DNA of 64,000 nucleotides from Bradyrhizobium sp. CB1015 (GTDB lineage: Bacteria; Pseudomonadota; Alphaproteobacteria; Rhizobiales; Xanthobacteraceae): the NCBI RefSeq assembly GCF_025200925.1, contig NZ_CP104174.1:7130001-7194000 (forward strand), in the 5' to 3' direction. The notes under the pieces are model-generated. The model saw only the letters and a program-made list of their open reading frames with translations. It had not been told where the DNA came from and did not search any database. Positions 4,950 through 58,818 of this stretch are shown here, piece after piece (the stretch's first letter is position 1; the number at the start of each line of letters is the position of its first letter). Position numbers and translations under genes: made by a program.

Positions 4950-5122
4950 CCCGTCTCGGACCTCCGGAGCTTCGCCATCGAGATCCACTGAACTTTATAG
5001 AATGACTAGCGGTCTGCAAACATCGCAAGCGCAGCCCGCCCTGCTGGTGTGAGTGCTCACAAAATCATCTCACGGGAACCTCAGCACTGCGAATCCAAAT
5101 GTGACAAACTGCGGGCATTGAT

Positions 5123-6835
5123 GTGACCACAAGTGTCCGCATTGACATTGGTGACGTCCGGCCATCGCTTCAAATCAGTTTCGAGCAGGCTCGCCCAGGT
5201 ACCCCGATCCCGCATCGTCTGGTCACGTCTTCCGTTCGTCTCGAGACCAAGCTAAAAGTCGGAGACGATCGGAATCACCATCGTGCAGCGCGCTGGATTC
5301 CCGCAGCATTTGCTGGCAGGCGCAAGACCGCGCAAGAGGTGTTTGAGATCGCGGGGGTGAGCTCGTTGGACAAAGACAGCAAGTCACGGGCCGTAACCAA
5401 CATCCTCATAACGGGCGGGTCACAGGCTTGGAAACTGTCGGCCGGTTTTGTCCTGACGATATTCTCGACGCGGAATCTTGCCCCGTCCGACTTCGGCCTG
5501 CTCGCCATGTCTGCGACGGCTGCAACGTTCCTCGGGCTCATCAAGGACGTCGGCGTTGGACAGGCCATCATTCAACGCACGGAAATCGCCAAGGGCCAGA
5601 TCGATGCGCTGTTCTGGCTGTCGGTGCTCGCTTCCGCGGCATCTGCTCTCATTCTGACGTTGAGCGCGCATCCGGTTGCGCTGTTCTACGGCGATGCGAG
5701 GCTTCAACAGCTCATGATCGCAATTGCCGGCCTAAGTTTCATTGCTGGCCTTCAGACCGTTCCGACGGCGCTGCTTGCCAGAGAATCCCAGTTCAAGGCC
5801 CTGGCAATCCTGGATGTCGCTGCGACAACCGCTTCCGTTGGCGCGGGAATCGCCGCCGTGATCGTCTTGAGAGACTATTGGGCACTTTACCTGTCCACGC
5901 TCGTTCTCACGGTCATTTCGACAGTCGGGATCTGGGCCTATTCCGGTTATCGCCCTGGATATCCCGATCTGGACAGCGAGACGCGACACATGGCGCGATT
6001 TGGCCTGCACGTGTCAGGATTCAACCTCGTCAACTATCTCTCGAGAAATGCGGATAACATTCTCATCGGCAAATTTCGAGGCGGCGAGGAGCTCGGCCTG
6101 TACGATCGGGCCTATAAGCTGTTGCTGCTGCCGATCGTCCAATTGCACAACCCGATCGGCCAGGTGATTGTCCCGCTGCTTTCGCGGCTTCGTTTCGATA
6201 AGGAGAGATATCTCAGCACCTACAGCGATGCCCTTTCCATGATTATGTTCATATGTCAGCCAGGCATCGTATTCGCCATCCTGCTCTCGGAGCCGCTCTT
6301 CAGAGTTCTCCTTGGCGAGCAGTGGGTGGGTGCAGCCACGATTTTTTCCTGGCTTGGTGTTGCGGGCTTGATCCAGGTCGCAACCGCGACAGCAGCTTGG
6401 CTGTTCCTCAGTCAAGGCCGTGGCCACGAGTACTTCAGGCTCGGCGTTTGGACCGCCCTGATCAACGTGACCTCATTCCTCGTCGGTCTTCCCTGGGGCG
6501 CGCTTGGCATCGCGGCGGCGTATACGCTGGTGAACTGCACCGTCGTGCTGCCGCTTTACGCGATATCTATCGGTCGTCATGGCCCGGTGACGACCAGGAG
6601 CCTGGTCCAGACGACTGTCCCACATTGGATCAGTTGTGGCGTTGCGGCGGCCGTCACAAGGATTTCGATGATCTCATTGCTGGATGGAAACTGTTTCGCT
6701 GGGCTGGTTACGCTGCTGGCGCTTGCCTATGCATCGTATCTCCTCGCCATGATCTTCTTCGCGCGGAAACGGGAACTTGCGAAACGCGTAGTACGCAACG
6801 TTGTTCGAAAGGCAAAGACCTTCAGCGAAGCATGA
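5123..6835 (+). CDS. Wzx-type polysaccharide flippase (MOP superfamily)
   Basis: From about residue 88 onward this is a multipass protein of the MOP exporter superfamily, like WzxC and AmsL, which flip undecaprenyl-linked repeat units across the inner membrane. Family-like motifs include LAPSDFGLLAMSATAATF and IIQRTEI in the N-terminal half, with up to 14 hydrophobic segments. The first 85 or so residues are polar and atypical. GTG at 5123, 5339 or 5357 and TTG at 5366 are in frame, and none has a strong ribosome-binding site, so the true start may be near 5357. The 3' end overlaps the convergent RTX/GH16 gene by 14 bp. It is one of two flippases in the locus. Confidence 0.85.
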   Translation: MTTSVRIDIGDVRPSLQISFEQARPGTPIPHRLVTSSVRLETKLKVGDDRNHHRAARWIPAAFAGRRKTAQEVFEIAGVSSLDKDSKSRAVTNILITGGSQAWKLSAGFVLTIFSTRNLAPSDFGLLAMSATAATFLGLIKDVGVGQAIIQRTEIAKGQIDALFWLSVLASAASALILTLSAHPVALFYGDARLQQLMIAIAGLSFIAGLQTVPTALLARESQFKALAILDVAATTASVGAGIAAVIVLRDYWALYLSTLVLTVISTVGIWAYSGYRPGYPDLDSETRHMARFGLHVSGFNLVNYLSRNADNILIGKFRGGEELGLYDRAYKLLLLPIVQLHNPIGQVIVPLLSRLRFDKERYLSTYSDALSMIMFICQPGIVFAILLSEPLFRVLLGEQWVGAATIFSWLGVAGLIQVATATAAWLFLSQGRGHEYFRLGVWTALINVTSFLVGLPWGALGIAAAYTLVNCTVVLPLYAISIGRHGPVTTRSLVQTTVPHWISCGVAAAVTRISMISLLDGNCFAGLVTLLALAYASYLLAMIFFARKRELAKRVVRNVVRKAKTFSEA

Positions 6836-9800
6836 AGTCATGCAACTCCGCCCGATGGACATCAATGGGGGTTACCGCGTGAACGGCGTCGACCGGATGA
6901 AGGCTCGAGTCAACATCTGGATAAGTGATGGCCACGAGGAGCCCTGCCTTGGCCGATTCATGAAAAGCCTCGTTGATTACCTCATATGCGGTGGGGATAG
7001 CGGACTGCTCGAACACGAACCCGTCGTCTCCCAGGCGCGCGGTGCCGACGGCCGGTGCGGTAGGAGGAGGCTGCGACGGCGCAACCGTCGAAAAATCAAA
7101 GCCGGCCTTCGGAGGGTCGATGACCAGCGTGCCCCCGGATCCGTCGCTCGAGAGATTGAAGGTCGACTTGGTATAGTCCCCAACGAGCGAGATATGTGCC
7201 GTGTGATTTTGAGCATCCACCACAGTCAACACGCCACCGGCTGTATCGCCAGAAAAGGACGCCCACGTTCCCGCTCCGTACGCGATATCCTTCAGGTCGA
7301 TATGATTGGAATTGGACGCGGTGCCGTCACCTGTCAGGCCGATGAGCGTTCCCGTAAATTGCGACGCGTGGTCCAACACCAGATTGCCGGTCGACGCCTT
7401 GAAGGTGATCGACCCGGAAGCGGCGCCGGACAATTCGAGCGTGGCGCCGGGGTCGACCGTCGCGGCCTGTGACATATTGCCGAGATTCAATACGACATTT
7501 CCGGAGATCTTGAGGATGGTCGATGACGTATTGATTACACCATCGCCGTTGAGGTCCTGATAAAACGTCGTCTCGACCGCTTTAAGAGCAGGATCGGTCG
7601 GGGACACCTTGTTCAGGAGGTTCGATACATAGTTGCCATTGCTGTCCGTCGTCCACACACAGAGTTCGCCGGTGGCCGGAATCTTCCAGGCCACCTCATA
7701 GCCGCTGGTCGTTTGCTCCACGCCCACCGGCGTCCAAGCGCCGAACTGTCCCGACACAACCGCTACGCCGCCGTACTTCAAGGTCGGTCCCGCGCCGCTG
7801 GCGCTCGCGTCGAGCAGATAATTCGAGCCGATCTGAACCAGGCTGGTAGAGCCGGACGCCTCGATTGTCGTGCCTGAAACCTTCTGGGGCGTTGGTGGAA
7901 GACCAATCACGCCATCACCGTTGAGATCCTGGTGAAATAGGATCTCGCTCGACTCAAGTGCCGGGTCGGTGCCGGACACCTTGTTCAGATAGTTGGATGC
8001 GAAATTGCCGTTGCTGTCGGTGCTCCAGACCGCGAACTGGCCCGTCGAGGAGATCTTCCACGCGACGAGATAGCCGTTCGACGACGCTTCCGCAGCCACC
8101 GGCACCCATGCGCCAAGCTGCCCCGCGACAACCGCCGTTCCGCCATTCTTCAAGATCACCGATGAGCCGGCCGTCGAAAGGTAGAAATTGCCTCCCGACT
8201 TGATGAGCGCTGTCGTGCCGGTCGCTTCGATCACTGTACCGACGGCGGCGCTGAAAGCGCTCGAAAGCTGGCTCAAATTGCCGGCGATGTCGGTGGCGGT
8301 CGCGGTGAAGCTGTGTTGCCCTGCCGTGAGCGATCCGGTGGTGACGCTCCAGGCCCCATTCGTCGCAGCGACGCCCGTGCCGAGCAAGGTCGAGCCTTCG
8401 TACAGCCGGACAGTGCTTCCGGCTTCTGCCGTGCCGGATACGATTATCGCGCTCGAAGCTCCAGGTGCGCCCGAGGTCAGGACAGGTGCAACCGGGGCAC
8501 GCGTATCGACCGTGACGTTCAACGCACCGGAGGAAGCGCTGACGTTGCCGGCGGCGTCCGCGGTCTTGCCGGTAAAGGTGTGATTGCCGTCCGCCAACGT
8601 TGCGGTAGCAAAGGACCAGGCTCCGTTGGTATCGGCAATCGCCGTTCCGATCATCGTCGCGCCGTCGAAGACCTGCACCGTGCTCCCGGCGTCCGCGGTT
8701 CCAGTCAAACTCACGTGGTTGACATTGGTGACGCCATCGCCGGCAACGTTGCTGTCTGGCGAGAACGACGCGAGCTTGGGCACGTTCGGGGCGACCGTAT
8801 CGACGGTGACATTCACCCCGGCTGAGAGCGCGGTGAGATTGCCGACACCGTCCATCGCCGCGGCGGCAAAGGCGTGGCCGCCTTCGGCCAGCATTGTGGT
8901 CGCCATGCTCCAGTTGCCGTTACCGTCGGCGATCGCCGTGCCGATCTGAGTTGTCCCGTCGAAAACCTTGACGGTTACACCTGCCTGCGCGCGACCGGTG
9001 AGGATCAGATGATTTGTATTGGTGAGGCCCGACACGATCGCGCCGCTGTCGTTGACAGCCGAGATCGTCGGCACGGCGATAGATGTCATCGCCATCGGCG
9101 AATTCGTCGCGGAAACGAATGAATAGTCGGCCGACGTCAAGCTGGTTACGCCCGCGATGCGCAGCGTGTCCGCTCCACCCGCGTAGTGAACGGTCCAAAC
9201 GTCGTTCACATGGGTCAAATAGGCGCCGCTATCGTAGCCTTTCAGAATCAGCTTGTCATGTTCGGCAGTCGCGCTCGTGAACACGTGGAAATCGGCGACC
9301 GTATCGTTGCCGCTGGCTACATTGTAGATGAACGTATCGTTTCCGGCTCCTCCGGAAAGCCAGTCATTCCCGCCCGCGCCATCCAGGAAATCGTCGCCGC
9401 TCGAGCCGACCATACGGTTTGCCGTTTGGTTGCCGACGCCCGCAAGCCCGCCCATCATCAACGTCAGGTTTTCGACGTTTGCCGACAACGTGTACGACGT
9501 CCACGCCTCCACGCTGTCAACGCCGCCGCCGGGATTTTCGACGATTTTCTGGTTCGCGCCTCCGATGACGTAGGTATCGTCGCCGTTCCATCCGACGAGC
9601 GTATCATCGATATTGACCGCCGAGAGCTTGTCGTTGGCCGCGGTGCCGTACACCATGCGGCTGCTCGCCTTCCCGCTGATCCACGACGTGATCGTCCCGC
9701 CGACCGGGAGTGTTGCTGGCAATTGGAAATCGTCGCTGGTGAATGCCGAGACCGTCGTGTTGCGGAACACCAGGGTGTCCTGGCTGGTCAACTTCAGGCA

Positions 9801-12059
9801 GACGTCGCTTCCGACCTGGGTCATCGCCGCCCGCACGTCGGCGAATGAGGTGAAGGCAAAGCCGTTGAGCTGGACGACATCGTGTCCGGCGCCTGATCCC
9901 GGCGAAAAGTCGGTTATGATGTCCGAACCGTCGCCGGAGTTGACCACGAAACTATCCACACCGCCGCCGCCGGTCAGGATATCATTGCCGAGCCCGCCGG
10001 TGATCACGTTTGCCGCGGCATTGCCGATGATGATGTTGGACTGAATATTGCCGGTGGCGTTGATGGCGGCCGAACCGGTGAGGGTCAGATTCTCGACGTA
10101 GCTCGAAAGCGTATAGCTCACCGAGGCGTTTACCGTGTCGATGCCTCCGCCATAGGCTTCGATAACCTTCGCACCGGAATCGGTGACGACATAAGTGTCG
10201 TCGCCGGCACCGCCGGTCATGACATCGTTGCCTCCTGCACCACCGATCAGGTCATTGCCGGACGTGCCGCTCAGCGTGTCCGCAGCTGCGCTTCCCGCGA
10301 TCGTGTTGGTCGGCGTGCCACTCGTGAGCAGGGTGTAGTTCGCAAGCGTGTACTCCGGCAATTGATAGGCTTTGATCGAATCGATGGTCATCGTCGCCGT
10401 CGATCCTGGAGCGGCGTTGCCGGGCCAGCTCCCGCCCATCGCCAGATTGGCGATCATGTACATCGCCGTATTCATGTCGGCGGGCGTGGCCTGCTGCGCG
10501 ACCTCGTTCCCGTCGACGAAGAATGTCAAGTCGTAAGGCGTCCATTTGAGCGCGAACGTGTGTTCTCCAGTGGTCAGGTTGGCTGTATTTGCCCAGCCCC
10601 CATTGGTCGCCGGCGCGTAGGGCGAGTGAATGGCCCAATGCGCCTGGTCAGGATCCTGACCAAAGGCTTCGAGCACATCGATCTCAGTATTGAGGTTATT
10701 GGCCGTGCTGGGCAGCATCCAGAACGCCGGCCACGCACCGCTTGTGCTGGGCAGCGTGGCTGTCATCTCGAAATAGCCGTAGGTCTGGGTAAAGCTGTTC
10801 TGGGTTGAGATCATGCCCGACGAAAATATGGCACTGCCCGTATAGGGCGTTGCGCTCGCAGGCAACGGTTGCGCCGTGATGACGAGGTGACCGTCCTGAA
10901 TCGAGAACGGATTGAGCCCGAGCGACGTTGATGCCTGGGCGGCCGGCAGCCCGGAAAAGCTGGGATCGACATACACCTCCTGTTCGCCGGCCAGCCCGTA
11001 CCCTGCGGCTCCGCTCCAGGCATAGCTCGTGCGCCAGGTCAGGCTCGGATCCTGACCGGCGGAGAGCGTGTTGAAGTCGTCGTTGAAGGTCTGGACCAGT
11101 CCGGTCAGGGGACTGACGATGTTTATATTGGCGGCCGTGAGATTCTGAAGGCTGGTGTTTTCAAGCGTTATCGTTTCGCCGCCAGCGATCGTCAGGACAA
11201 GGTCGGTGCCCACCGGCTTCATGGCCGCCGTGACGTCGGCGAACGTCTTGAAGCCGGTGTTGTTGAGCTGCAGGATGTCCCCGCCCGCGCCGGCCCGAAA
11301 GTCGGTGACAATGTCGTTGCCGTTGCTCGCTCTCACGATAAAAGTGTCGCGACCGGCCCCACCGGTCAGCACATCGTTGCCTCGCCCGCCGTCGATCACG
11401 TTGTCGCCGGCATTGCCGGCAATGAAGTTGTTGAGATCATTGCCGGTGGCGGGAGACGGAACGCTATCTGTCAGGACAAGATTTTCGACGTTCGGCGCAT
11501 TGACGAGGCTGTATCCGTTAATGTTCCAGACACGGATCGTATCGATACCCTCTCCGGCCTGCTCGACGACCTTGGTGTTGTGGTCATAGACATAGTAGGT
11601 GTCGTCACCTGCTCCGCCGATCAGCGTGACGCCCGTGCCGCCGGCCTCCATGCCGTCATTTGTCACACCGGTCGTCAGCGTACCGCCCGCGGCGACGGTA
11701 CCCGCCCAGTTCCATGCCGTTCCGCTCGCTGGCAGCGGATTGTCCAGCGCGACATTGCTTGGAACCAACGTCGAAAGCGCAACGTTCTGCAGCGTCAGGG
11801 TTTCGGTCGACGACAGCGTTACGACCGTATCGGAGCCCACTTGGGTGGCCGCTGCCAGCAAACTGGCGAACGTCGCAAAGCCGTAGTTTTGCAATCGCAA
11901 CACATCGCCGCCCAAGCCCGCCTGAAAATCAGTGACGGTATCGGAGCCGTATCCCTTCGAGACAACGAAAGTATCGCTGCCTGCGCCTCCGGTCAGAACA
12001 TCGTTTCCGGTACCGCCAAACAGAACGTCAGTACCGGCGCTTCCATTGATAATGGTCAT
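6822..12059 (-). CDS. Giant secreted RTX protein with GH16 glycanase domain (ExsH-like)
   Basis: The 1745-residue product is modular. RTX calcium-binding blocks (GGxGNDxLxGG) lie near 10-45, 150-240, 590-720 and 800-910. A family 16 glycoside hydrolase domain spans about 324-567 with catalytic EIDVLE (E459, D461, E464). Three bacterial Ig-like repeats cover about 998-1274 and two W_rich_C-type repeats with DLNGDG calcium loops about 1276-1509. There is no N-terminal signal peptide, as expected for type I secretion. S. meliloti ExsH has a comparable RTX plus GH16 layout and cleaves succinoglycan. ATG 12059 is chosen because AGGAG lies 13 nt upstream. The substrate is probably the local exopolysaccharide. 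No HlyD-type adaptor is nearby. Confidence 0.88.
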   Translation of the reverse strand: MTIINGSAGTDVLFGGTGNDVLTGGAGSDTFVVSKGYGSDTVTDFQAGLGGDVLRLQNYGFATFASLLAAATQVGSDTVVTLSSTETLTLQNVALSTLVPSNVALDNPLPASGTAWNWAGTVAAGGTLTTGVTNDGMEAGGTGVTLIGGAGDDTYYVYDHNTKVVEQAGEGIDTIRVWNINGYSLVNAPNVENLVLTDSVPSPATGNDLNNFIAGNAGDNVIDGGRGNDVLTGGAGRDTFIVRASNGNDIVTDFRAGAGGDILQLNNTGFKTFADVTAAMKPVGTDLVLTIAGGETITLENTSLQNLTAANINIVSPLTGLVQTFNDDFNTLSAGQDPSLTWRTSYAWSGAAGYGLAGEQEVYVDPSFSGLPAAQASTSLGLNPFSIQDGHLVITAQPLPASATPYTGSAIFSSGMISTQNSFTQTYGYFEMTATLPSTSGAWPAFWMLPSTANNLNTEIDVLEAFGQDPDQAHWAIHSPYAPATNGGWANTANLTTGEHTFALKWTPYDLTFFVDGNEVAQQATPADMNTAMYMIANLAMGGSWPGNAAPGSTATMTIDSIKAYQLPEYTLANYTLLTSGTPTNTIAGSAAADTLSGTSGNDLIGGAGGNDVMTGGAGDDTYVVTDSGAKVIEAYGGGIDTVNASVSYTLSSYVENLTLTGSAAINATGNIQSNIIIGNAAANVITGGLGNDILTGGGGVDSFVVNSGDGSDIITDFSPGSGAGHDVVQLNGFAFTSFADVRAAMTQVGSDVCLKLTSQDTLVFRNTTVSAFTSDDFQLPATLPVGGTITSWISGKASSRMVYGTAANDKLSAVNIDDTLVGWNGDDTYVIGGANQKIVENPGGGVDSVEAWTSYTLSANVENLTLMMGGLAGVGNQTANRMVGSSGDDFLDGAGGNDWLSGGAGNDTFIYNVASGNDTVADFHVFTSATAEHDKLILKGYDSGAYLTHVNDVWTVHYAGGADTLRIAGVTSLTSADYSFVSATNSPMAMTSIAVPTISAVNDSGAIVSGLTNTNHLILTGRAQAGVTVKVFDGTTQIGTAIADGNGNWSMATTMLAEGGHAFAAAAMDGVGNLTALSAGVNVTVDTVAPNVPKLASFSPDSNVAGDGVTNVNHVSLTGTADAGSTVQVFDGATMIGTAIADTNGAWSFATATLADGNHTFTGKTADAAGNVSASSGALNVTVDTRAPVAPVLTSGAPGASSAIIVSGTAEAGSTVRLYEGSTLLGTGVAATNGAWSVTTGSLTAGQHSFTATATDIAGNLSQLSSAFSAAVGTVIEATGTTALIKSGGNFYLSTAGSSVILKNGGTAVVAGQLGAWVPVAAEASSNGYLVAWKISSTGQFAVWSTDSNGNFASNYLNKVSGTDPALESSEILFHQDLNGDGVIGLPPTPQKVSGTTIEASGSTSLVQIGSNYLLDASASGAGPTLKYGGVAVVSGQFGAWTPVGVEQTTSGYEVAWKIPATGELCVWTTDSNGNYVSNLLNKVSPTDPALKAVETTFYQDLNGDGVINTSSTILKISGNVVLNLGNMSQAATVDPGATLELSGAASGSITFKASTGNLVLDHASQFTGTLIGLTGDGTASNSNHIDLKDIAYGAGTWASFSGDTAGGVLTVVDAQNHTAHISLVGDYTKSTFNLSSDGSGGTLVIDPPKAGFDFSTVAPSQPPPTAPAVGTARLGDDGFVFEQSAIPTAYEVINEAFHESAKAGLLVAITYPDVDSSLHPVDAVHAVTPIDVHRAELHDFMLR
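7533..8234 (-). repeat. Two tandem W_rich_C-type repeats inside the RTX gene
   Basis: Two consecutive units of roughly 330 bp encode about 110 residues each. Shared landmarks in order are G(Q)xGAWxPV, YxVAWKI, VWxTDSNGN, LNKVSxTDPAL and DLNGDGVI. The pattern matches the tryptophan-rich C-terminal domain family (PF07483) and each unit ends in an EF-hand-like calcium loop. They likely arose by internal duplication and may bind glycan or calcium. Confidence 0.7.
8238..9068 (-). repeat. Three tandem bacterial Ig-like repeats inside the RTX gene
   Basis: Three units of about 90-98 codons share the pattern SG-(T/R)AxAGxTVxV(F/Y)(D/E)G, GTxxADxNGxWS, LxxGxHxFT and TVDTxAP. This is the bacterial Ig-like (Big) spacer type common in large type I secreted adhesins. 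They probably extend the enzyme domain away from the cell or bind calcium. Confidence 0.75.
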
Positions 12060-12185
12060 GATGGATTGCGTGCTCCTTTTACGTGCACACAACTATGCAC
12101 GCGTTCAAAAGAGCCTTATGGATTCGACGCAATTTGACCCATGACGCGAGAATCAGCTGACGGCCTGGAGATTTCTGCGGAGACA

Positions 12186-12278: not shown

Positions 12279-14126
12279 CTATGGAACCGTGTTCCGCATC
12301 CGATATGTGAGCACTTCATCTTGCGAAGTGCCTGTTACGCACGCTCCTCGACTCGCCAGGACTTTCGCCGGAGGACCCTCAGCGCGAACCCGGCCGTTTT
12401 CAATGCACACCACGTGGTCCGCATCGCGCACTGAATCCAGGCGATGTGTTATCAGCAACAAGGTTCGGTTCTTGAATTGTAGCTGGATCGCGCGTCGAAT
12501 GCTGTCCTCGAGCGTCAGATCGAGGGCGCTCATCGCTTCGTCCAGGATGAGGAACTTCGGATTGCGCACGATCGCTCGGGCAAGACCAAGGCGCTGCCGC
12601 TGACCGCCTGAGAAGCGCAGGCCGTGCTGTCCGATCCAGGTGTCGTATTTGTCCGGCAAGGCCTCGACGACCTCTGAAACGCCCGCGACCTGTAGCGCCC
12701 GCCGAACCTCTTCCTCGGAGGCGTCGTTCTTGGCCATCCGAACGTTCTCGATCACCGTGCCTTCGATCAGGTCCACATCCTGCCCCGCAATCGCGAGCAT
12801 GCCGAGCCAATCGGTTCGCCGAACGTCTTCGATGGATCGCCCATCAACCCGTATGATACCCTCGTTTGCCGAATAGAGCCGCAACAATAGATTTACGATC
12901 GTGGTCTTACCCGCTCCACTGGCTCCGATGAGCGCAGTGGTCTTGCCCGCAGGAATGTCAAACGAAGCATCCAAAAGAGCGGGGTCGGTACCGGCATCAT
13001 AGCGGAACGTCACGTTGCGAAATGAGATGCCGTTCTCCAGTTTAGCCACGGCGACGTGCCCGGCGGTCGGATACTCCTTGTCACCTGTCGAGAGCATGTG
13101 TCTGATGGACCGAAGCTGCGGCTCGATCTGCGCCATATACAGCAAGTTCCCTTCCAGATCTCGCATATGCGGCTGCAATCGATAGAGCAACGCGACCGCG
13201 GTCAGGCTGGTCGCGAAGCCGATTCCCCATAGATCAGCGAACGCGATTACGAGAAACAGCACGAAAAGATACCCCACCTCCGTCAGAGGCGAGACCAGGG
13301 CGGATAGGCGCGCAAGGCGCAGCGCGACCTCTCGGGCCTGCGCCGAAGCCTGCTCGAAGCGCTTTTGGTGAATCTCCTCCTGGCCATACGCGCGGATCGT
13401 TCGCATGCCCTGGAGTGTCATCAGCATATGCTCACCCAGCTTTTGATGAACCAGCTTTACGCCGGCACCCAATCGCTGCATTGGCAGCGAAAGATGGCGC
13501 AATCCCGCCGATATGATCATCGAGGCGACGAGGGCGACGACCGTTACCTTGATCGAGAGCGCCAACAGAAAAGATGCGAAGAGAAAAACCGAACACGAAC
13601 TCACGACAATGCGGGTCAGACTGGCGTATGCCCCGGAGATCACCCATGTCTCGGTTCCCAACACCTCCATGAGATAGGCTTCGTCATGGCGTTGGAAGAA
13701 CGAATACGAAGTTGACAGATATTGCAGATGAACGCGGTTGCGCGCGACTTCATTGATCTTCTCTCCGACACGCGCACTGATCAATGTGTTGACAAAGGAA
13801 AGAGCACCGCGAGAAATGATGAGAAGGAGCAGCACGAGGGCAGTTTCGGTCGAGCTGTGAAACCAGTTCGCCGCATATCGAAGCGCTTCGCCCAGCAGGC
13901 CGCTGGTCGACGTTGCAAGCTCCACCTGACCCATGGCGAAATAGAAGAACAGGAGCACGAGAGTAATCCCGACCGTCTCCGCCAACGATGTCGCCAGGCC
14001 AAGGACGATCAGCGCGGGCGTCACCCAGCCGGGCAGTGGAGCAAGCTTGAGCAGCTTGAACAGTTCGACCAATGCAGCGCGGCGAGCAGCTCTCGGACTT
14101 CGTGTGTTGTTCGCGTGCTCTGTCAT
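12279..14126 (-). CDS. ABC exporter, fused membrane and ATPase domains (MsbA-like)
   Basis: The 615-residue half-transporter has six membrane segments in residues 20-320 and an ATPase domain from about 370. Walker A GASGAGKTT, signature FSGGQRQRLGLARA and Walker B FLILDEAMSALD are all intact, as is the H-loop (LLITHRLDS). It should act as a homodimer at the inner membrane. Similar proteins export lipids, lipid-linked glycans (PglK type) or exopolysaccharide (ExsA type). There is no peptidase or accessory N-domain of protein exporters, so glycan export is more likely than RTX export. ATG 14126 overlaps the upstream stop as ATGA, making it the last gene of the galE operon. Confidence 0.85.
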   Translation of the reverse strand: MTEHANNTRSPRAARRAALVELFKLLKLAPLPGWVTPALIVLGLATSLAETVGITLVLLFFYFAMGQVELATSTSGLLGEALRYAANWFHSSTETALVLLLLIISRGALSFVNTLISARVGEKINEVARNRVHLQYLSTSYSFFQRHDEAYLMEVLGTETWVISGAYASLTRIVVSSCSVFLFASFLLALSIKVTVVALVASMIISAGLRHLSLPMQRLGAGVKLVHQKLGEHMLMTLQGMRTIRAYGQEEIHQKRFEQASAQAREVALRLARLSALVSPLTEVGYLFVLFLVIAFADLWGIGFATSLTAVALLYRLQPHMRDLEGNLLYMAQIEPQLRSIRHMLSTGDKEYPTAGHVAVAKLENGISFRNVTFRYDAGTDPALLDASFDIPAGKTTALIGASGAGKTTIVNLLLRLYSANEGIIRVDGRSIEDVRRTDWLGMLAIAGQDVDLIEGTVIENVRMAKNDASEEEVRRALQVAGVSEVVEALPDKYDTWIGQHGLRFSGGQRQRLGLARAIVRNPKFLILDEAMSALDLTLEDSIRRAIQLQFKNRTLLLITHRLDSVRDADHVVCIENGRVRAEGPPAKVLASRGACVTGTSQDEVLTYRMRNTVP

Positions 14127-15118
14127 CGCGATTGACTCGGATCGCCGATGGCAAATAACGAAGCCGGGGGTCGGACCACCTTGCGACGCTGATGACGCCA
14201 TTTCCACCGGACTTCCAAGACGGTATCCCGCGGCACATCGTGCACGGCGACCCTGAGCGCCAGCAAGGGATTCCGTCTGCAAAGCTGTCCAAGGATTGAG
14301 ACGAAGTACCACAACTGACCGCCCGTCAGAGCTCTCCGAAGCAGCCAACGCGCATAGTTTCTGAAGCCCAGGTCGAGGAGCGCCATGCGCTCTGGGTGCC
14401 GCGCCATGATCTCATCGGCGACCAGCATCCAGGACCGGAACATCCGGGGCATGTTGCTTGACATGTTGTTCGGAAGGTAGCGGTAGCCGATCTGGTACTC
14501 GGGCACGACCGCGAAGTGGTACGCCTCCGCGACACGGCAATAGAACAGCAGATCTTCGCAGCCTTCTGCCCCCGACGCCCTGAGTCCGCTCTCGAAACCT
14601 TTTGCAGCTGTGAGGGCTTCCCGGCGAACTAGCGCCGAGCTGCCGTTGCCAATGAAATTTCCCTGACAGAGATAGTCCAGCACCTCGCCTGCATGAAAGA
14701 CGGGGTCGGACCTGGCACTTACGCGACTATCGGCATCGATCCAGTCATACCAGCTGTAAACCAGACCAGTCCGCTCCCCTGCATCAAGCAAGGCTTGAAG
14801 CTGTTGCTCAATCTTGCGAGGCGTCCAGAGATCATCGGCATCAATGAACGCGACGAAGTCCGCGCGCGCGGCCTGCCAGCCCGCATTCCGGGCGGCTGCC
14901 ACCCCTGCATTACGCTGTTCTATGATTGTTACGCGAGAATCCTGAACCAGATGCCGCTGGACAACTGCGACCGTGTTGTCTGTGGAGCCGTCGTCCACGA
15001 CAATGATTTCCAGCTCGCGGTGCGACTGGGATCTGACGCTGCGAAGCGTCTCATCGATCGTTGCACTGGCGTTGAAGGCGGGAATAACCACACTGACCAG
15101 CAGCGCACCGCTACTCAT
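14123..15118 (-). CDS. GT2 glycosyltransferase
   Basis: The 331-residue protein is a typical GT-A family 2 transferase. SVVIPAFNASATIDETLRS opens the fold at about 9-27, VVDDGSTD follows near 40-47, the donor/metal motif DADD lies near 94-97, and the ED pair near EGCEDLLFYC would supply the base. It has no membrane domain and should act in the cytosol on a lipid-linked acceptor. Both ends overlap neighbours by 4 nt (ATGA), so translation is coupled to the fusion gene upstream and the ABC exporter downstream. The sugar transferred cannot be read from the sequence. Confidence 0.85.
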   Translation of the reverse strand: MSSGALLVSVVIPAFNASATIDETLRSVRSQSHRELEIIVVDDGSTDNTVAVVQRHLVQDSRVTIIEQRNAGVAAARNAGWQAARADFVAFIDADDLWTPRKIEQQLQALLDAGERTGLVYSWYDWIDADSRVSARSDPVFHAGEVLDYLCQGNFIGNGSSALVRREALTAAKGFESGLRASGAEGCEDLLFYCRVAEAYHFAVVPEYQIGYRYLPNNMSSNMPRMFRSWMLVADEIMARHPERMALLDLGFRNYARWLLRRALTGGQLWYFVSILGQLCRRNPLLALRVAVHDVPRDTVLEVRWKWRHQRRKVVRPPASLFAIGDPSQSR

Positions 15119-18045
15119 TGATACTGCTCCAGGCAGCGCGCGAATGTGTCCAGCGTGAAATCGCCTCTGACCTCAATTCGCGGCAGGTCCAACAGATTGT
15201 CCTTCAGTGTTGCGGCCCGGCTGACCGTGTTGAACACGGTCTTGTAGCCGCATTCGGCTGCGAGGATTCCAAGCCGCTGATTGGTAGAGCCAAAAGGCGC
15301 AGCAAGCGACGTTATCGAGCGCCCAAGCCATCGCTCCAACTGTGCACGGGATCGCGTCAGTTCCTCGGCGAGAGTCCAGGTCGCAAGTTCCTGGCCGCGC
15401 GGGTGGCTCGCCAAATGGCTACCAAAGGATACGCCCTCGGCGGCAAGCCCGGCGATCCTGGCCGCATCGAGCAGCGAAGCGGGCTCTCCAAACGGCGCAT
15501 CCCATTCAGCCCGCTTTCCCACGAAATCGGTCGCAATGAACACCTCCGCCGAGAAATCGTTTGCCTGCAAGATCGGCCATGCATACTCGGCAAAGTCCTG
15601 GTAGCCATCGTCGAAGGTGATCAGCACCGGCCTGCCCACGAACGGATGATTGCTTGCTACGAACCAGGCGAGCTGATCCGAATTGATCGTGTGGTAGCCA
15701 TTGCGGCGAAGCCACAGCATCTGCTGCCCGAACGCATCCGGAGACAAGCGGTACCGCGCCAGTTCGTCTGGTCCTTCTGTCGCAATTCGGTGATACATCA
15801 GGACCGGAGCGTGCGTTCGTCTTTCGCATTGCGCGACGTCAAACCTGCGCGCCACGGCCCCGCCCCACACGATGGATCGCGCAAGCTCGACCTCAATCGG
15901 CGCGTCGATAGTCGCGCATTTCACCTGTATGTCAGGGGCGGCTTCGCCCGGGAGTAACCGCCTGAACCGATCGATACGGTAAAGCTCCGTCTCGATCGAT
16001 GTCTCCAGGGCGAGCCCGGGCACGCCCTGGAGAATCCGCCTAATCGTCTCCGCCCCATACGGACTCTCCCAGTCGAGGCCCGTTCGCGACATGTTGTCCT
16101 TCAGCACAAAGGCATGGGCCGCCACCAGGTGACCGCCAGGACGCAGCGCCTGCACCAGTCGCTTCGCGACCGATTCTAGTTCGGCCTCGTCATTAAGGTA
16201 GTAAAGGACCTCGGAGCAGACGATCAGATCAGTGTCCTGTGGGAGCGGATCGGCGGACAAATCCAATTGAGTGAATTCGATATTCTGATGGCCATTGCAT
16301 CGAATACGGGCGCGATCGAGCGCCTTGGTCGAGATATCGGCGGCCCTGAGGCGCTTGACCTTGGGTGCCAATTGCCATGTGAAATGTCCCTCCGCACACG
16401 CAAGCTCAAGCGCGTGATCCACTGGCCGGTCAGGCAGGAGCTCGAGCTGCCGGCTATACTTTTCCTGTTCATATGGCGAACCGTAGTTCCAGGGATCCTC
16501 TTGCTCGAAGAAACCCTCCCAAAATTTCTTGCGCGCGGTGTCTCGAGATCTTCTGACACATGGCATAGGACTGCTCGAAGCGGAGATGCCCGAGATGGCT
16601 CGCGACCGCGCCTCACGTGAGGCCCGCGAGGCCAACTCGCGTAGCCGCCCCCGGTGAGTATCTCGGCCGTCTCGCATGAAGGATTGAAGTCGTTCTGTCC
16701 GCTTGTGGAGTGCGATTTTTGCCCGAACCAGCCTTCCGATCTGGTCTTTGACCTGCAAATGAACGAGGCCATGGGCGGCCAGCGCGATCCAGAAGCGGTT
16801 GTTGACAGTGCCGAGGGCACCAATATCGAGCAGCGTCAGGATGCGAGGCCCGTCACAGAGATAGACATACAATCGATCGACAGTCCCGATCGGCCTGATG
16901 GTATCGATACGGCGAAGGTCAACGCGCGTGCCGAACGTCAACGTGAGGACCCTGGGCGCCGAAAGGTCGTCATAGTCGAGCACTTTTCGCTCAAAGCGGT
17001 ATTGACACTTTCGCCCTGCCGCCAGGTCGCTCCATGCGTGCCCCATTGCTGAAATGAGGCTGGTTACGCCCTTCCCGTATTGCGGCCACCGTTCCGCCAG
17101 CCTGGCGGGCACCGTTCTTGCCCCGACCATCACGGCATCGAGCAAAACAGAGGCAACGAAGTCCGCCGTTGTCTCGGTGTTTGGAATGTCGCTGAGCGTT
17201 TCCGGCGATGGATCGCTGGCATTCTGGCGGCCGCAGTCAAATCCGGCACACCAGAGGGCGAAATACGCGTACGCCGCCGCGGCGCTGCCGGATGCAGTTG
17301 ACGCTCCAGCTTGATGTGCGGGTGCCGGCTCGCTGACGCGGTCGTCACTCGAAAATCCGCGTGCAATAACCACACGCGCGTCGGCCAGCATCCGTTTGAC
17401 ATCTTGCGTCAGTGAACGGTCGCTTGTCCGGTAATAGCTCAATTTCTCGTCGACATGGATCCACCTACCGCCGCAGCGGGCGATCCGTTGCCACAGGTCC
17501 CAATCCTCGCACGTGCGGAGGCTGGTCTCAAAGCCGCCGACCTTTGCAACCGCGCTCTTCAAGACGAGCACGCCATGGATGAACGTGGCACACGTCCGAG
17601 CGAAACGCTCGAAGGCGTTGTCCTGGATGGCCGGATCGCAGCGAACGGGAGTTTCACTGCCGTCAGGCATAACCCGGCAACAGTTGCAGTAGGCCGCCAC
17701 CGCCGAGGGGTCGCGATCCAGCGCAGCATTCATCTGCGCAAGAAAGGATCGATCAATCCAATCGTCACTGTCCAGGAACAGTATTCGTTCGCCGCGCGCG
17801 CTGGCAATTCCCTTGTTGCGGGCACTGGAAGCGCCTGCTCCGTCAGACTGTAGAACCCGAAAGCGGGAATCCCGCGCCGCGTATTCAGCAACGATCTCGG
17901 CCGTGGCATCGATCGAACCGTCATCCACGACAAGCGCCTCCCAGGAGGGGGCGCTCTGCGCGAGCAGGCTGTCAAGCGTTTCAGCAAGGGTTCCCGCAGC
18001 GTCGCGGGCGGCGATCACGACGGACGTACGCGGATGGGCTGTCAT
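15115..18045 (-). CDS. Trifunctional GT2 / NodS-like methyltransferase / polysaccharide deacetylase
   Basis: The 976-residue protein joins three enzymes. Residues 6-215 are a GT2 domain (VVDDGSID, then DSDDW near 92-96). Residues 260-480 are of unknown type. Residues 506-690 are a class I SAM methyltransferase of NodS-like pattern (ALELACAEGHFTW at 545-557). Residues 748-970 are a NodB-type polysaccharide deacetylase with TFDDGY at 810-815 and the metal site SHLASHP at 876-882. All key residues are present, so each domain may be active. The start overlaps the upstream stop as ATGA, and a longer frame to 18171 is unlikely. Probable role: add, N- or O-methylate, and deacetylate an amino-sugar unit. 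Substrate unproven. Confidence 0.82.
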   Translation of the reverse strand: MTAHPRTSVVIAARDAAGTLAETLDSLLAQSAPSWEALVVDDGSIDATAEIVAEYAARDSRFRVLQSDGAGASSARNKGIASARGERILFLDSDDWIDRSFLAQMNAALDRDPSAVAAYCNCCRVMPDGSETPVRCDPAIQDNAFERFARTCATFIHGVLVLKSAVAKVGGFETSLRTCEDWDLWQRIARCGGRWIHVDEKLSYYRTSDRSLTQDVKRMLADARVVIARGFSSDDRVSEPAPAHQAGASTASGSAAAAYAYFALWCAGFDCGRQNASDPSPETLSDIPNTETTADFVASVLLDAVMVGARTVPARLAERWPQYGKGVTSLISAMGHAWSDLAAGRKCQYRFERKVLDYDDLSAPRVLTLTFGTRVDLRRIDTIRPIGTVDRLYVYLCDGPRILTLLDIGALGTVNNRFWIALAAHGLVHLQVKDQIGRLVRAKIALHKRTERLQSFMRDGRDTHRGRLRELASRASREARSRAISGISASSSPMPCVRRSRDTARKKFWEGFFEQEDPWNYGSPYEQEKYSRQLELLPDRPVDHALELACAEGHFTWQLAPKVKRLRAADISTKALDRARIRCNGHQNIEFTQLDLSADPLPQDTDLIVCSEVLYYLNDEAELESVAKRLVQALRPGGHLVAAHAFVLKDNMSRTGLDWESPYGAETIRRILQGVPGLALETSIETELYRIDRFRRLLPGEAAPDIQVKCATIDAPIEVELARSIVWGGAVARRFDVAQCERRTHAPVLMYHRIATEGPDELARYRLSPDAFGQQMLWLRRNGYHTINSDQLAWFVASNHPFVGRPVLITFDDGYQDFAEYAWPILQANDFSAEVFIATDFVGKRAEWDAPFGEPASLLDAARIAGLAAEGVSFGSHLASHPRGQELATWTLAEELTRSRAQLERWLGRSITSLAAPFGSTNQRLGILAAECGYKTVFNTVSRAATLKDNLLDLPRIEVRGDFTLDTFARCLEQYQ

Positions 18046-19202
18046 CTGCGAAATCTTTGGCGATGATAGAACAGCAATCCGGCGAGATATCCGGTCACCT
18101 CCTCCTTCAGGAAGCGGTCGCGAATGCTGTCTCCTTCCATTGCTTTCCGGAGCAGCCGAGCGAGGTACCAACGCGGCTTGTGATAGTAGGCCAGACGCCG
18201 GTTCGCCGAGATGCCGGTTCGCTCATACTGCACCAAAAGTGCGGCCGCATGACCGCGCATGTAATGATAGATCTGGCTGGCCAGTCCATCCATTGTCCTG
18301 CGGTGAAAATGGAATGCGACTGACGCCGGAGTGTAACGACACGTGTAGCCGCCCGCCAGCAATCGATACCAATACTCCGAGTCGCCCGAGCAGCCGGCCT
18401 GACCGACGTCCAGGCGCTCATCAAAGAGCCCGACGGCCTGAAACACCTCACGCCGGAACGCCATGCTCGCTCCGGCGCCGAGGTCCCACGCGGGAAGGAC
18501 CTGGCCGTGATGCGATCGGAAGGCTGCGCTGTCGTAATCCTGTTCGCGATAGCCCTTGCCGAATCCCCAATACGTCTCGAAGTGCCGTTGCGCCTCGGTC
18601 GCGAGCTCGGCGGGAAGCACAAGCCCAGTCACCGCGCCGACCTCGGGAGAGTCAAACGCACATGTCAGTTGCTCCAGCCAGCGCGGGTGAAGCAGCACAT
18701 CGTCATCCGTATAGGCGACAATATCTCCAGTCGCCTGGAGCGCGCCGGCATTGCGCGCAATGTCCAAGCCGGATCGGTCCTCCCGAATGTAGGTTGCTGC
18801 CGCGGCCAACGCGACATCCCGGGTCCGCCGATCGCGCGATGCATTGTCTACGACGATGATTTCTCGCGGAGGACGGGTCTGCTGCGGCAGCGACGACAAG
18901 CATTTGCTCAGCTCGTCCGGACGGTCGCGCGTGCAGATCACCACGCTCGCCGAGAGCCTCACTTTCGTCGGGGTTCGCACTTGGGAATCGACGGCTGACA
19001 GGAAGGTGTCGTCGATATGATCGATCCTGGCGTCCGTTATCTGGCCTTCATGCATTAGCACATGGCCGATCGGCTGGTCGGCGCGCCAGAACACCGTCAT
19101 GCCCTCGATCAATGTCGTTTCCGCAACATCGGACGCCGACGTCACGGAGACATGCGCCACGCCTCTTCCCAGTCCAATTCCTGCGAATCGCGTATCGATC
19201 AT
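18042..19202 (-). CDS. GT2 glycosyltransferase with N-terminal extension
   Basis: The 386-residue protein begins with about 80 residues of unrecognised type, then a GT2 domain: SVVICTRDRPDELSKCL, VVDNASRD and the donor motif TDDDV. The sequence QAGCSGDSEYWYRLL would hold the catalytic acidic pair. A C-terminal segment has several aromatic/basic stretches but no clear membrane span. It is the second gene of the operon, 12 bp after galE, and its stop overlaps the next start by 4 nt. Some relatives with this layout are O-antigen or mycofactocin-type transferases. The exact reaction is unknown. Confidence 0.8.
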   Translation of the reverse strand: MIDTRFAGIGLGRGVAHVSVTSASDVAETTLIEGMTVFWRADQPIGHVLMHEGQITDARIDHIDDTFLSAVDSQVRTPTKVRLSASVVICTRDRPDELSKCLSSLPQQTRPPREIIVVDNASRDRRTRDVALAAAATYIREDRSGLDIARNAGALQATGDIVAYTDDDVLLHPRWLEQLTCAFDSPEVGAVTGLVLPAELATEAQRHFETYWGFGKGYREQDYDSAAFRSHHGQVLPAWDLGAGASMAFRREVFQAVGLFDERLDVGQAGCSGDSEYWYRLLAGGYTCRYTPASVAFHFHRRTMDGLASQIYHYMRGHAAALLVQYERTGISANRRLAYYHKPRWYLARLLRKAMEGDSIRDRFLKEEVTGYLAGLLFYHRQRFRR

Positions 19203-19214
19203 CTTCGTGCGAAA

Positions 19215-20198
19215 TCATGCCGGCGGGTTGCTATCGCTCCACCTCAGTGCAGTCTCAATAATGAAATCGATCTCGGATTGCCGCGGGCTCCAACCGAGCT
19301 CCCGCTTGGCCTTGGCAAAGGAGGCGACGAGCGTGGGCGGGTCGCCCGCGCGGCGTGGGCCGCGGCGGACGACCGGATCATTTCCGGAGACACGCCTCAC
19401 TGCCTTTATTAGTTCGATCACACTCGTGCCAACCCCTGTACCGAGATTGAAGATATGAGTACCACCTCGCGCCACCAGCATGTCACCTGCGAGAAGGTGC
19501 GCCTGCGCCAGGTCGTTGACGTGGATATAATCCCTGATTGCACTGCCATCCGGCGTCGGAAAGTCCGTTCCCAGAATGGTGAAAGGCCGATCGGGTCGGC
19601 GCACAGCTTCGATCGCCAGCGGAATGGCATGGGTTTCCGGTTCGTGGCGCTCGCCGATCTCTCCGTCCGGATCACAGCCCGCCGCGTTGAAATAGCGCAG
19701 CGAAACCGACGACATCTCGTACGCGCGGCCAAAGTCCTCCAGCATGCGCTCGATGATCATCTTGGACCAACCATAGGGATTGATCGGCGCCTGCGGATGT
19801 GTTTCGTCTATCGGGGTCTGCTTGGGAATTCCGTAACTGGCACACGTGCTGGAAAAGAGCACGCGCGAACAGCCGGTCGCTCGCATTGCCTCCAGCAGCG
19901 CAAGCGTTCCTCTCGTGTTATTGTCGTAATAGATAGCGGGATCAGCCACGGATTCGCCGACATAAGCCAGTGCCGCAAAGTGCGCGACAAGGTCCGGCTT
20001 GTAGGTGTCCAGCGCTGCGCGAACGCCGGCTGAATTGCGAATATCGCACTCGACCAACGGTCCCCAGCGCACCGCATCGCGCCAGCCTCGGGAAAGATTG
20101 TCGAGCGTCACGACATTCCAGCCCGCCATTGCAAACGCCTTGCAGCAATGCGAGCCGACGTAGCCGGCACCGCCGGTGACCAGAACGGTCTTTTTCAT
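19215..20198 (-). CDS. galE: UDP-glucose 4-epimerase
   Basis: The 327-residue short-chain dehydrogenase-like enzyme interconverts UDP-glucose and UDP-galactose in the cytosol. The Rossmann motif VTGGAGYVGSH is at residues 7-17, the catalytic tyrosine and lysine are in YGWSK, and SSTCASYG supplies the serine/threonine. Length and the LRYFNAAGCDPDGEIGE block match GalE/ExoB closely. It heads the operon that continues into two GT2 proteins, the trifunctional enzyme and the ABC exporter, suggesting that galactose (or GalNAc) enters that glycan. The 291-bp gap upstream should hold the operon promoter. Confidence 0.93.
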   Translation of the reverse strand: MKKTVLVTGGAGYVGSHCCKAFAMAGWNVVTLDNLSRGWRDAVRWGPLVECDIRNSAGVRAALDTYKPDLVAHFAALAYVGESVADPAIYYDNNTRGTLALLEAMRATGCSRVLFSSTCASYGIPKQTPIDETHPQAPINPYGWSKMIIERMLEDFGRAYEMSSVSLRYFNAAGCDPDGEIGERHEPETHAIPLAIEAVRRPDRPFTILGTDFPTPDGSAIRDYIHVNDLAQAHLLAGDMLVARGGTHIFNLGTGVGTSVIELIKAVRRVSGNDPVVRRGPRRAGDPPTLVASFAKAKRELGWSPRQSEIDFIIETALRWSDSNPPA

Positions 20199-23310: not shown

Positions 23311-23418
23311 GCGATTGCCTCACCAATCATGCTTTGCGGACCCCGAAATTACTTCTGGCTCATCAAGGCATAGATTGATAGCCTCTTTTGCCACCTGCAA
23401 ATTTGTGAGCGACACGCG

Positions 23419-24468
23419 TTGAAGATTAGCATCGTCATAACAGTCTACAATTACGAACGGTATGTCGGATTGGCAATCGACAGCGCGTTGAATCAGACCC
23501 GTCCGGCGGACGAGATCGTCGTCGTCGACGACGGATCGATCGACGGTTCCCGCCGGATCATTGCCGGCTATGGTGACAGGATTCGAGCCATATTTCAGGC
23601 AAATCAGGGCAACATCGCAGCATTCGAAGTTGGGTATCGCGCAGCGACAGGCGACGTACTGCTGTTCCTCGATGCGGATGACATCCTGATGCCGACGGCG
23701 GTCGAAAACGTTGCTGCGCACTGCCGCGAAGGTGTTTCGAAAGTTCAGTTCAATCTGGATATCATCGATGACGCCGGCAGGCGACTTGGGCGTTCGTTCT
23801 GTGCGTTTCCCAAATCCTACGCGCCGGACGATGTGCACGCAGAATTTAGCCGGTCGGGAACGTACATCTGGCCAGTCATGTCGGGAAATGCGTACTCCCG
23901 AGAGTTTCTTCGACAGGTCATCCCGCTCAATCCGCCCGTGGGATACGACGGCGCCCTCAACACGATCGCGCCTCTTTACGGAGACGTGGTCACGGTGCAG
24001 GAAACCCTCGGGCAATATCGGCTCCATGGCAAAAACATCAGCCGAAATGACGCGAAGGGCCGGGCGCAGCGGTTTCCGGATTTTCCCAGGCAGATCGGGT
24101 TCCGCATCGCAGAGTTCGACATCCTGAAGGCACATTGCGACAGGAAGTCCATGCACGTGCAAGCGGCACGGCCGATCGATAACGAGATCGTCTTTGTCAA
24201 CTATCGCCTCGCGTCCCGTAAACTGGGACTGCGCTATGTTGGGCAGGACGCGGACACGTCGAGTTCACTTCTGCGCCGTGGGATATGGCTTGCGCTGACC
24301 ACGACCACACATTGGCGCGCCGCCGCCTCTCATATCGTCTGGTTCACAGGGTTGTTCTTGAGCCCTTCCTGGCTTGCGTACCAGCTGATCATGCTCCGCT
24401 TCAACAGGGCAGAACTCCTGAGGCCGCTCGTCAAGTTCGGAAGTGTCATCCGGCGCAAGCCCGCCTGA
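23419..24468 (+). CDS. GT2 glycosyltransferase
   Basis: The 349-residue protein opens directly with ISIVITVYNYERYVGLAIDS, then VVDDGSIDGS and the donor motif LDADDILMP, all classic GT2. TTG at 23419 is the only reasonable start because the fold begins within two codons and no ATG or GTG lies in frame before it. The middle carries SGNAYSREFL and YDGALNTIAP, shared with the GT2 protein at 38.8-39.9 kb; the two look like paralogues. A hydrophobic C-terminal stretch may associate with the membrane. Sugar unknown. Confidence 0.85.
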   Translation: MKISIVITVYNYERYVGLAIDSALNQTRPADEIVVVDDGSIDGSRRIIAGYGDRIRAIFQANQGNIAAFEVGYRAATGDVLLFLDADDILMPTAVENVAAHCREGVSKVQFNLDIIDDAGRRLGRSFCAFPKSYAPDDVHAEFSRSGTYIWPVMSGNAYSREFLRQVIPLNPPVGYDGALNTIAPLYGDVVTVQETLGQYRLHGKNISRNDAKGRAQRFPDFPRQIGFRIAEFDILKAHCDRKSMHVQAARPIDNEIVFVNYRLASRKLGLRYVGQDADTSSSLLRRGIWLALTTTTHWRAAASHIVWFTGLFLSPSWLAYQLIMLRFNRAELLRPLVKFGSVIRRKPA

Positions 24469-27301: not shown

Positions 27302-27311
27302 TACTCGACCC

Positions 27312-57720: not shown

Positions 57721-57728
57721 GGAAACAC

Positions 57729-58163: not shown

Positions 58164-58168
58164 AGCGC

Positions 58169-58816: not shown

Positions 58817-58818
58817 GG

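Follow-up and report, generated by a model that had tools for sequence, protein, structure and literature searches.

Glycosyltransferase, methyltransferase and deacetylase signatures occur together in one protein, here termed TRI, encoded in a 64,000-nucleotide stretch of the Bradyrhizobium sp. CB1015 genome (the window). What does such a protein make, and how is it related to the Nod proteins that it partly resembles?

Domain structure of TRI

TRI is a single open frame of 976 residues, with an ATG start and a TGA stop. A sequence-only reading of this DNA had recognized the single frame, but the coding strand has to be corrected to minus: the corresponding frame on the plus strand is interrupted by stops. 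The translation is organized as follows.

15115..18045, minus strand: TRI, 976 residues; GT2, middle module, NodS-family methyltransferase, CE4 deacetylase
17326..18045, minus strand: GT2 domain, residues 1-240; catalytic DSDDW and E180
16600..17340, minus strand: middle module, residues 236-482; a small sheet between helices
15841..16530, minus strand: NodS-family methyltransferase domain, residues 506-735
15118..15840, minus strand: CE4 deacetylase domain of the PgaB/IcaB/PplD type, residues 736-976

The motifs that had suggested three enzymes in one chain (DSDDW, LELACAEG, TFDDGY and SHLASH) are all present, and each domain scores above its curated Pfam cut-off: Glycos_transf_2 with 99.5 bits (residues 8-119), NodS (PF05401) with 85.8 bits against a gathering cut-off of 24 (residues 514-670), and Polysacc_deac_1 with 68.6 bits (residues 805-937). 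Chance matches are excluded by these scores. Assignment of the first domain to GT2 is supported by profile, fold, and the DxD and catalytic acidic residues. The catalytic residues of all three domains are invariant in 60 aligned homologues; the Asp-Asp and His-x3-His residues of the CE4 domain (D812, D813, H877, H881) are found in 60 of 60.

The structure model of TRI is confidently folded, with a single disordered linker. The middle module, previously unassigned, has a confident predicted fold that matched none of the solved structures. Hydropathy scanning revealed no hydrophobic segment (top 19-residue mean 1.53), making a membrane helix in TRI unlikely.

The operon and its neighbourhood

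TRI lies in an exopolysaccharide region, within a coupled operon comprising galE, two further GT2 genes (GTA and GTB) and an ABC exporter.

19215..20198, minus strand: galE, UDP-glucose 4-epimerase (389 bits, cut-off 262)
18042..19202, minus strand: GTA, GT2 upstream of TRI, overlapping it by 4 bases
14123..15118, minus strand: GTB, GT2 downstream of TRI, overlapping it by 4 bases
12279..14126, minus strand: ABC exporter (top-scoring NCBIfam models are HepA and MsbA, neither reaching its cut-off)
6822..12092, minus strand: GH16, Ig-like, RTX and W_rich_C protein (coordinates of the open frame, not of a called start)

The exporter starts with an ATG at 14126, and so overlaps GTB by 4 bases; its Walker A, Walker B and FSGGQ signature motifs are all present. 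The GT2-TRI-GT2-ABC arrangement recurs in 15 of 83 loci, while 60 of the 83, at least 41 of them from Mesorhizobium, have TRI without GTA, GTB and the exporter beside it. Matches to the GH16/Ig-like/RTX/W_rich_C frame adjoin the cassette in all seven Bradyrhizobium genome-contig loci.

A widespread family with the TRI architecture

Such fusions are found elsewhere too, as a widespread family already named by NCBI as 'trifunctional glycosyltransferase/class I SAM-dependent methyltransferase/polysaccharide deacetylase'. TRI, with its order of GT2, class I SAM methyltransferase and CE4 domains, is a member of this group, matching it in domains and order over its full length and differing in nothing essential. 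A literature search found no functional study of, or experiment on, the family. Relatives occur in many genomes of several phyla, including cyanobacteria, Verrucomicrobiota and Planctomycetota, and the domain order is conserved across phyla.

Across 93 loci searched with BLASTP, 85 of the 86 open frames matching the deacetylase domain carry all three domains (59 with a BLASTP-recognizable middle and 26 without); the 86th joins only glycosyltransferase and deacetylase. Full-length homologues of 91-51% identity align along the entire chain. Both observations make it improbable that the fusion arose from a frameshift or an assembly error, and we reject this explanation, the frame being intact in many genomes. 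Four relatives have no methyltransferase, three of these with intact deacetylase motifs, so that methylation is optional, and the methyltransferase and deacetylase remain joined where the GT2 domain is absent or relocated. A match to the methyltransferase only was found in 91 of 343 retrieved proteins, an unsorted set in which many may be fragments.

Relationship to the Nod proteins

The strain has a nodABCSUIJ set near 1.72 Mb, on the same contig as TRI, which lies near 7.15 Mb and outside the nod locus. Because this separate set is millions of bases away, TRI is not the strain's Nod-factor machinery. TRI falls below the equivalog cut-offs for NodS (NF041650; 104.3 against 300 bits) and NodC (TIGR04242; 25.7 against 550 bits), the latter agreeing with the hydropathy scan and with the earlier proposal that the GT2 domain lacks NodC-type membrane segments.

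The proposed likeness of the methyltransferase to NodS is upheld by Pfam and by its fold. With the Nod-factor N-methyltransferase NodS (3ofj/3ofk) it shares the fold, N-terminal PW..E residues and the E612/Y615 motif, but it differs in being fused, in its subthreshold score, in lying away from the nod locus and in falling outside the NodS group of our tree. Position 644 is mostly H in TRI and S in the 14 NodS rows.

The proposed likeness of the deacetylase to NodB, in contrast, does not hold. NodB, a chitooligosaccharide deacetylase, shares the CE4 fold class with TRI in general terms, but its equivalog model (TIGR04243, cut-off 240 bits) gave no TRI match up to E 1; the strain's own NodB scores 340 bits. 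We reject a NodB relationship on these model scores. NodB was also absent among the 50 VIA rows listed for the whole TRI model, which in itself does not exclude it. The nearest relatives in fold and sequence, judged from solved structures and NCBIfam models, are PplD, PgaB and IcaB, although TRI scores below the PgaB equivalog cut-off (TIGR03938; 87.5 against 321.9 bits). These deacetylases are extracytoplasmic, whereas that of TRI is fused, in a chain with no likely membrane helix.

In the tree NodS sits on a long branch and groups with free-standing methyltransferases (SH-aLRT 99), and no TRI row falls in the group holding NodS; direct derivation of NodS from TRI is thus not supported. The TRI rows require three label changes, so the tree does not show a single TRI clade. 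It is a quick LG+G4 tree with no bootstrap and several long branches; those of L091_solo219 and P0343 are very long, and these two proteins may be unrelated to the rest. It took 55 of 86 TRI rows (85 loci plus the window), with 31 Mesorhizobium rows dropped as thinning, and 19 free-standing rows hand-picked from 110. NodS rows were labelled by gene order; L104 and L108 lacked such order and were labelled solo, yet fall among NodS. Fourteen of the 18 fetched stretches read as nod loci (L104, L108, L110 and L111 did not), a gene-by-gene comparison with models being confined to L094.

Free-standing relatives of the methyltransferase

Some free-standing relatives carry the GO term nodulation in their database records, a caution that Nod-based labels mislead. 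Using one Deinococcus protein, chosen with N-deacetylase-methyltransferase clusters in view, we matched 72 plasmid records, of which 40 were listed and 10 opened, a sample that favours one lineage. An N-deacetylase gene lies near the methyltransferase in all ten opened loci, and an annotated glycosyltransferase gene in five. Like TRI, these clusters of PIG-L deacetylase, NodS-family methyltransferase and acyl-CoA dehydrogenase pair an N-deacetylase with a NodS-family methyltransferase, but as separate genes, with an unrelated deacetylase fold and the additional dehydrogenase. Some unopened Deinococcus plasmid records also showed PIG-L among the matches listed. Near a chromosomal free-standing gene (G238) an acyl-CoA dehydrogenase is present and no deacetylase was found in the fetched stretch; none of the eight matches in the draw that included it lay near a PIG-L match among those listed.

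Proposed function

On balance we think it probable, though by no means certain, that TRI works in the cytoplasm and carries out, within one chain, the successive steps that place an N-methylated amino sugar in a surface glycan. The GT2 domain would extend a growing glycan, probably lipid-linked, by an N-acetylated hexosamine: either GlcNAc or, with the adjacent galE contributing to its synthesis, GalNAc. Removal of the N-acetyl group would then fall to the CE4 domain, after which the NodS-type domain would methylate the freed amine using SAM. GTA and GTB may attach adjacent sugars, and export of the product across the inner membrane may be the task of the ABC exporter. Heparan N-deacetylase/N-sulfotransferase likewise frees and then modifies a hexosamine amine in one chain, but by sulfation rather than methylation, with no GT2 domain and with unrelated sequences. 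PMC13353177 is a paper on a related subject.

An unlikely but serious alternative is that the three steps belong to one pathway in which the NodS-type domain O-methylates a sugar, for example as a cap, and the deacetylase acts independently on N- or O-acetyl groups. Rhizobial polysaccharides commonly contain O-methyl sugars, and the placement of the TRI methyltransferase outside the NodS group and the residue at position 644 fit this reading. So does MMAR_2193 of Mycobacterium marinum, an O-methyltransferase that its authors aligned with proteins named NodS-like (PMC8730385). N-methylation is favoured by the proximity of free-standing relatives to N-deacetylases of unrelated fold in the opened plasmid loci, and by the persistence of the methyltransferase-deacetylase pair where GT2 is missing or has moved.

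Less likely still, the domains could serve different glycans or residues, the fusion merely co-expressing three enzymes of one cluster. Cassette neighbours can indeed fuse, as in P0108, where TRI is joined to a relative of GTA (59% across 355 residues), and glycosyltransferase-deacetylase forms lacking the methyltransferase exist, but the constant domain order across phyla and the confidently folded model with its one disordered linker argue against this. That TRI stands in for NodC, NodB and NodS by making or tailoring a chitin oligomer or Nod factor, as its NodS-family domain and the nod genes of its host might suggest, is strongly disfavoured, indeed barely credible, given the separate nodABCSUIJ set, the scores against all three Nod models and the relatives in cyanobacteria, Verrucomicrobiota and Planctomycetota.

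More tentatively, single chains that combine glycosyl transfer with N-deacetylation and N-methylation may be a widespread, unrecognized bacterial route to N-methyl-hexosamines (secondary amines) in exported surface glycans. In that case, the N-methylation of Nod factors would be a specialized use of an older chemistry also run with PIG-L, and the middle module might be a fold with no solved example that passes the glycan between active sites.

If the N-methylation reading is correct, one gene would equip an envelope glycan or exopolysaccharide of many soil, plant-associated and aquatic bacteria with an amino sugar that is both charged and methylated. This would explain an annotated family that the literature search found unstudied, offer a compact enzyme for producing N-methylated amino glycans, and give the NodS family a role beyond nodulation.

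TRI is an intact and widespread three-enzyme protein

The reading frame of TRI is real and intact, translating from ATG to TGA on the minus strand of the window (15115-18045) into 976 residues. All three domains previously proposed to share this one chain score above the curated Pfam cut-offs:

TRI residues 8-119, Glycos_transf_2 (GT2), 99.5 bits
TRI residues 514-670, NodS PF05401 (methyltransferase), 85.8 bits
TRI residues 805-937, Polysacc_deac_1 (deacetylase), 68.6 bits

No loss of catalytic residues is seen on alignment. Among 60 sequences, with the remaining rows 51-91% identical to the first, the GT2 positions D92, D94, D95 and E180, the methyltransferase positions E547, D570, E612 and Y615, and the deacetylase positions D812, D813, H877 and H881 are identical in every row; we take their catalytic roles from the respective families. 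The view that the GT2 lacks NodC-type membrane segments also holds, with no membrane helix likely anywhere in TRI (maximum 19-residue hydropathy mean 1.53).

The domain labels of the sequence-only reading fared unequally. The methyltransferase is NodS-like, with NodS as its top solved relative (3ofj, E 1.1e-21; runner-up 3.5e-10) and its top NCBIfam model (6.4e-30 versus 1.7e-7 for the next), at 104 bits against a model cut-off of 300. The deacetylase is closest to PplD (6dq3) and PgaB; the NCBIfam PgaB and IcaB models match it at 87.5 and 42.6 bits and the NodB model gives no match up to E 1, so that calling it 'NodB-like' is inaccurate in detail. Chondroitin and heparosan synthases are among the many GT2s that the GT2 domain resembles, and sequence does not reveal its sugar.

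By homology, the fusion is not unique to this strain. A protein search with TRI returned 1132 proteins at E ≤0.001 (best 120 of 1132 listed), and a genome scan gave 185 pattern matches, 176 of them relatives, from which 79 distinct loci were retained. These loci come from Bradyrhizobium, Mesorhizobium, Rhizobium, Sphingobium, Novosphingobium, Caulobacter, Acetobacteraceae, Methylococcaceae, Maritimibacter, cyanobacteria, Brocadia, Calditrichia, Ignavibacteriales and Haloferula. Across 195 genomes of Bradyrhizobium, the host genus judging by the nearest named relatives, long DNA matches to the TRI gene occur in 14 and short ones only in 12 more; full-length matches are found in 6 genomes (7 copies). 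TRI is a well-conserved three-enzyme protein whose homologues NCBI already names 'trifunctional glycosyltransferase/class I SAM-dependent methyltransferase/polysaccharide deacetylase'. No relevant study of its function was found in the open-licence literature, and the fusion is not described in passages of two papers on cyanobacterial NodB-like proteins (PMC6963936, PMC9620832).

All four parts (GT2, middle module, methyltransferase and deacetylase) are present in 118 of 343 retrieved proteins. Methyltransferase and deacetylase occur without a recognised GT2 in 88, and in 36 more that have the middle module, many of these GT2-less proteins coming from short contigs and being perhaps truncated. 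The GT2 is placed behind the other two enzymes in three proteins. Four combine GT2, middle and deacetylase without a methyltransferase, with deacetylase motifs intact in three; the one with Asn at the first Asp of the TFDDGY motif is P0045. Three consist of middle and methyltransferase only, and 91 match by the methyltransferase only, single-domain proteins and fragments being counted together. TPR or DUF4214 domains occur in some variants, and one carries a relative of GTA, a GT2 encoded beside TRI, fused in front. In a cyanobacterium, a further, distant GT2-deacetylase protein of 981 residues (L078_10, 16300-19245) is encoded near a TRI gene.

Genomic setting of TRI

TRI is the third of five consecutive minus-strand genes, the others being:

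19215-20198, minus strand, galE
18042-19202, minus strand, GTA
14123-15118, minus strand, GTB, a second flanking GT2 gene
12279-14126, minus strand, ABC exporter

Four-base overlaps join GTA to TRI, TRI to GTB and GTB to the exporter, and 12 bases separate galE from GTA. The exporter has Walker A, Walker B and FSGGQ signature motifs. Its top NCBIfam models, HepA (331 of 725 bits) and MsbA (298 of 602), both fall below cut-off and its best solved-structure matches are ABCB1-type transporters; its cargo is therefore not settled by sequence. Adjoining it is a 1756-residue ORF (6822-12092, minus strand) with GH16, Ig-like and RTX repeat regions and two W_rich_C stretches, which reaches 668 bits with the EglC glycanase model (cut-off 700); it may be secreted and depolymerise the local polysaccharide. 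Nearby genes encode a GDP-mannose dehydratase and an epimerase, a priming sugar transferase, two flippases of the Wzx type and a Wzz/ATPase protein, and one further gene gives a Wzy-like match just below cut-off; together they mark an exopolysaccharide region. Tad/Flp pilus-type genes adjoin this region (53858-62035: a secretin, T2SSE, two T2SSF and a TadG-like gene), and longer ORFs of the cluster at 23320-24162 (minus), 27294-28142 (plus) and 3309-4988 (minus), whose coding strand is not certain, have no Pfam match at E 0.001.

We searched 83 loci of TRI relatives (79 genome, 4 plasmid) for GTA upstream and GTB and the exporter downstream on the same strand. The complete set flanks the relative in 15 loci, GTB and the exporter only in 2 (both near a contig end) and GTA alone in 6; all are absent in 60, at least 41 of them Mesorhizobium. 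GH16-RTX matches lie beside the cassette in all seven Bradyrhizobium loci of the genome_contigs set. One Bradyrhizobium genome (G110) has two cassette copies about 3.4 Mb apart, one (L129) beside a GH16-RTX match and the second (L130) without one in the fetched stretch. From this distribution, the cassette looks like a movable module.

A possible N-methylated amino-sugar pathway

Many glucosamine-bearing products (for example mycothiol, bacillithiol, GPI and glucosaminyl hopanoids) arise by transfer of an N-acetylated sugar that is then deacetylated, and NodB followed by NodS is the known case of deacetylation then N-methylation. In TRI, the GT2 would transfer an N-acetylated sugar, the CE4 domain would deacetylate it and the NodS-type domain would N-methylate it, so that steps performed by separate enzymes in the NodB/NodS pathway would be held on one chain. 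The domain set for such a pathway, as proposed earlier, is present, and on balance we lean towards the ordered scheme.

It is possible, but rather unlikely, that the NodS-type domain O-methylates instead. Family membership alone is insufficient proof of N-methylation, and a mycobacterial enzyme compared with NodS-like proteins by its authors is an O-methyltransferase (PMC8730385). The TRI methyltransferase differs from NodS at several positions. In a quick tree with long-branch warnings, the group holding NodS and most free-standing relatives (single NodS-family methyltransferases) contains none of the TRI rows, and NodS has a long branch. Against O-methylation stands the company of the free-standing relatives. 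If a NodS-type domain acts on an amine, amine-freeing enzymes should be encoded nearby; gene clusters that pair PIG-L deacetylases with methyltransferases of this type were the starting point for a plasmid test. A search with one Deinococcus relative (P0303) matched 72 plasmid records (40 of them listed), of which 10 loci were opened, one per genus from ten genera (L116-L125). N-deacetylases are near the methyltransferase in all ten. A PIG-L gene lies beside it in eight, seven by annotation and one, in Nostoc, by weak tblastn similarity (27%, E 1e-8); on the Deinococcus radiodurans plasmid PIG-L is about 2.8 kb away beyond a helicase gene, and in Rubrobacter (L118) a CE4 polysaccharide deacetylase is one gene away. 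Acyl-CoA dehydrogenase occurs in all ten loci and an annotated glycosyltransferase in five, and several of the methyltransferases carry the GO term nodulation.

A less selected check of 60 Pseudomonadota genomes gave eight PF05401 matches at E 1e-12 in five genomes. Three are nodS (the host's own, one in G021 with the same gene clusters, and one in G252 with NodB and NodC by tblastn) and four are TRI-type; the last, in G238, adjoins an acyl-CoA dehydrogenase, and a deacetylase was not found in the fetched stretch. PIG-L is sparse in this set (29 matches, spread over 23 of the 60 genomes), which should make chance neighbours rare, but none of the eight PF05401 genes is near any listed PIG-L match. 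No relevant paper on PIG-L/methyltransferase clusters was found in the open-licence literature.

Less probable again than O-methylation is that the fused domains act on independent substrates. Least likely is a role in Nod-factor synthesis, since the genome has a separate set in which NodA, NodB, NodC, NodS, NodU, NodI and NodJ each exceed their NCBIfam cut-offs:

G000:C1:1718500-1730500, nodABCSUIJ set (locus L094), LysR-type gene beside it

The host thus probably nodulates. On a single 8.41-Mb contig the set is found near 1.72 Mb and TRI near 7.15 Mb, a distance of 5.4 Mb, or of about 3 Mb in the other direction if the contig is circular. The host's PF05401 ranking is led by nodS at 353.6 bits, with the TRI methyltransferase second at 89.5. 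It is thus very unlikely that TRI serves as the strain's Nod-factor enzyme.

Our analysis adds the cassette, corrects the deacetylase subtype, sets TRI apart from the nod genes of the strain and shows that, in the opened loci, free-standing methyltransferases of the NodS family are paired with N-deacetylases. The product of the PIG-L/methyltransferase/acyl-CoA dehydrogenase clusters seems worth separate study.
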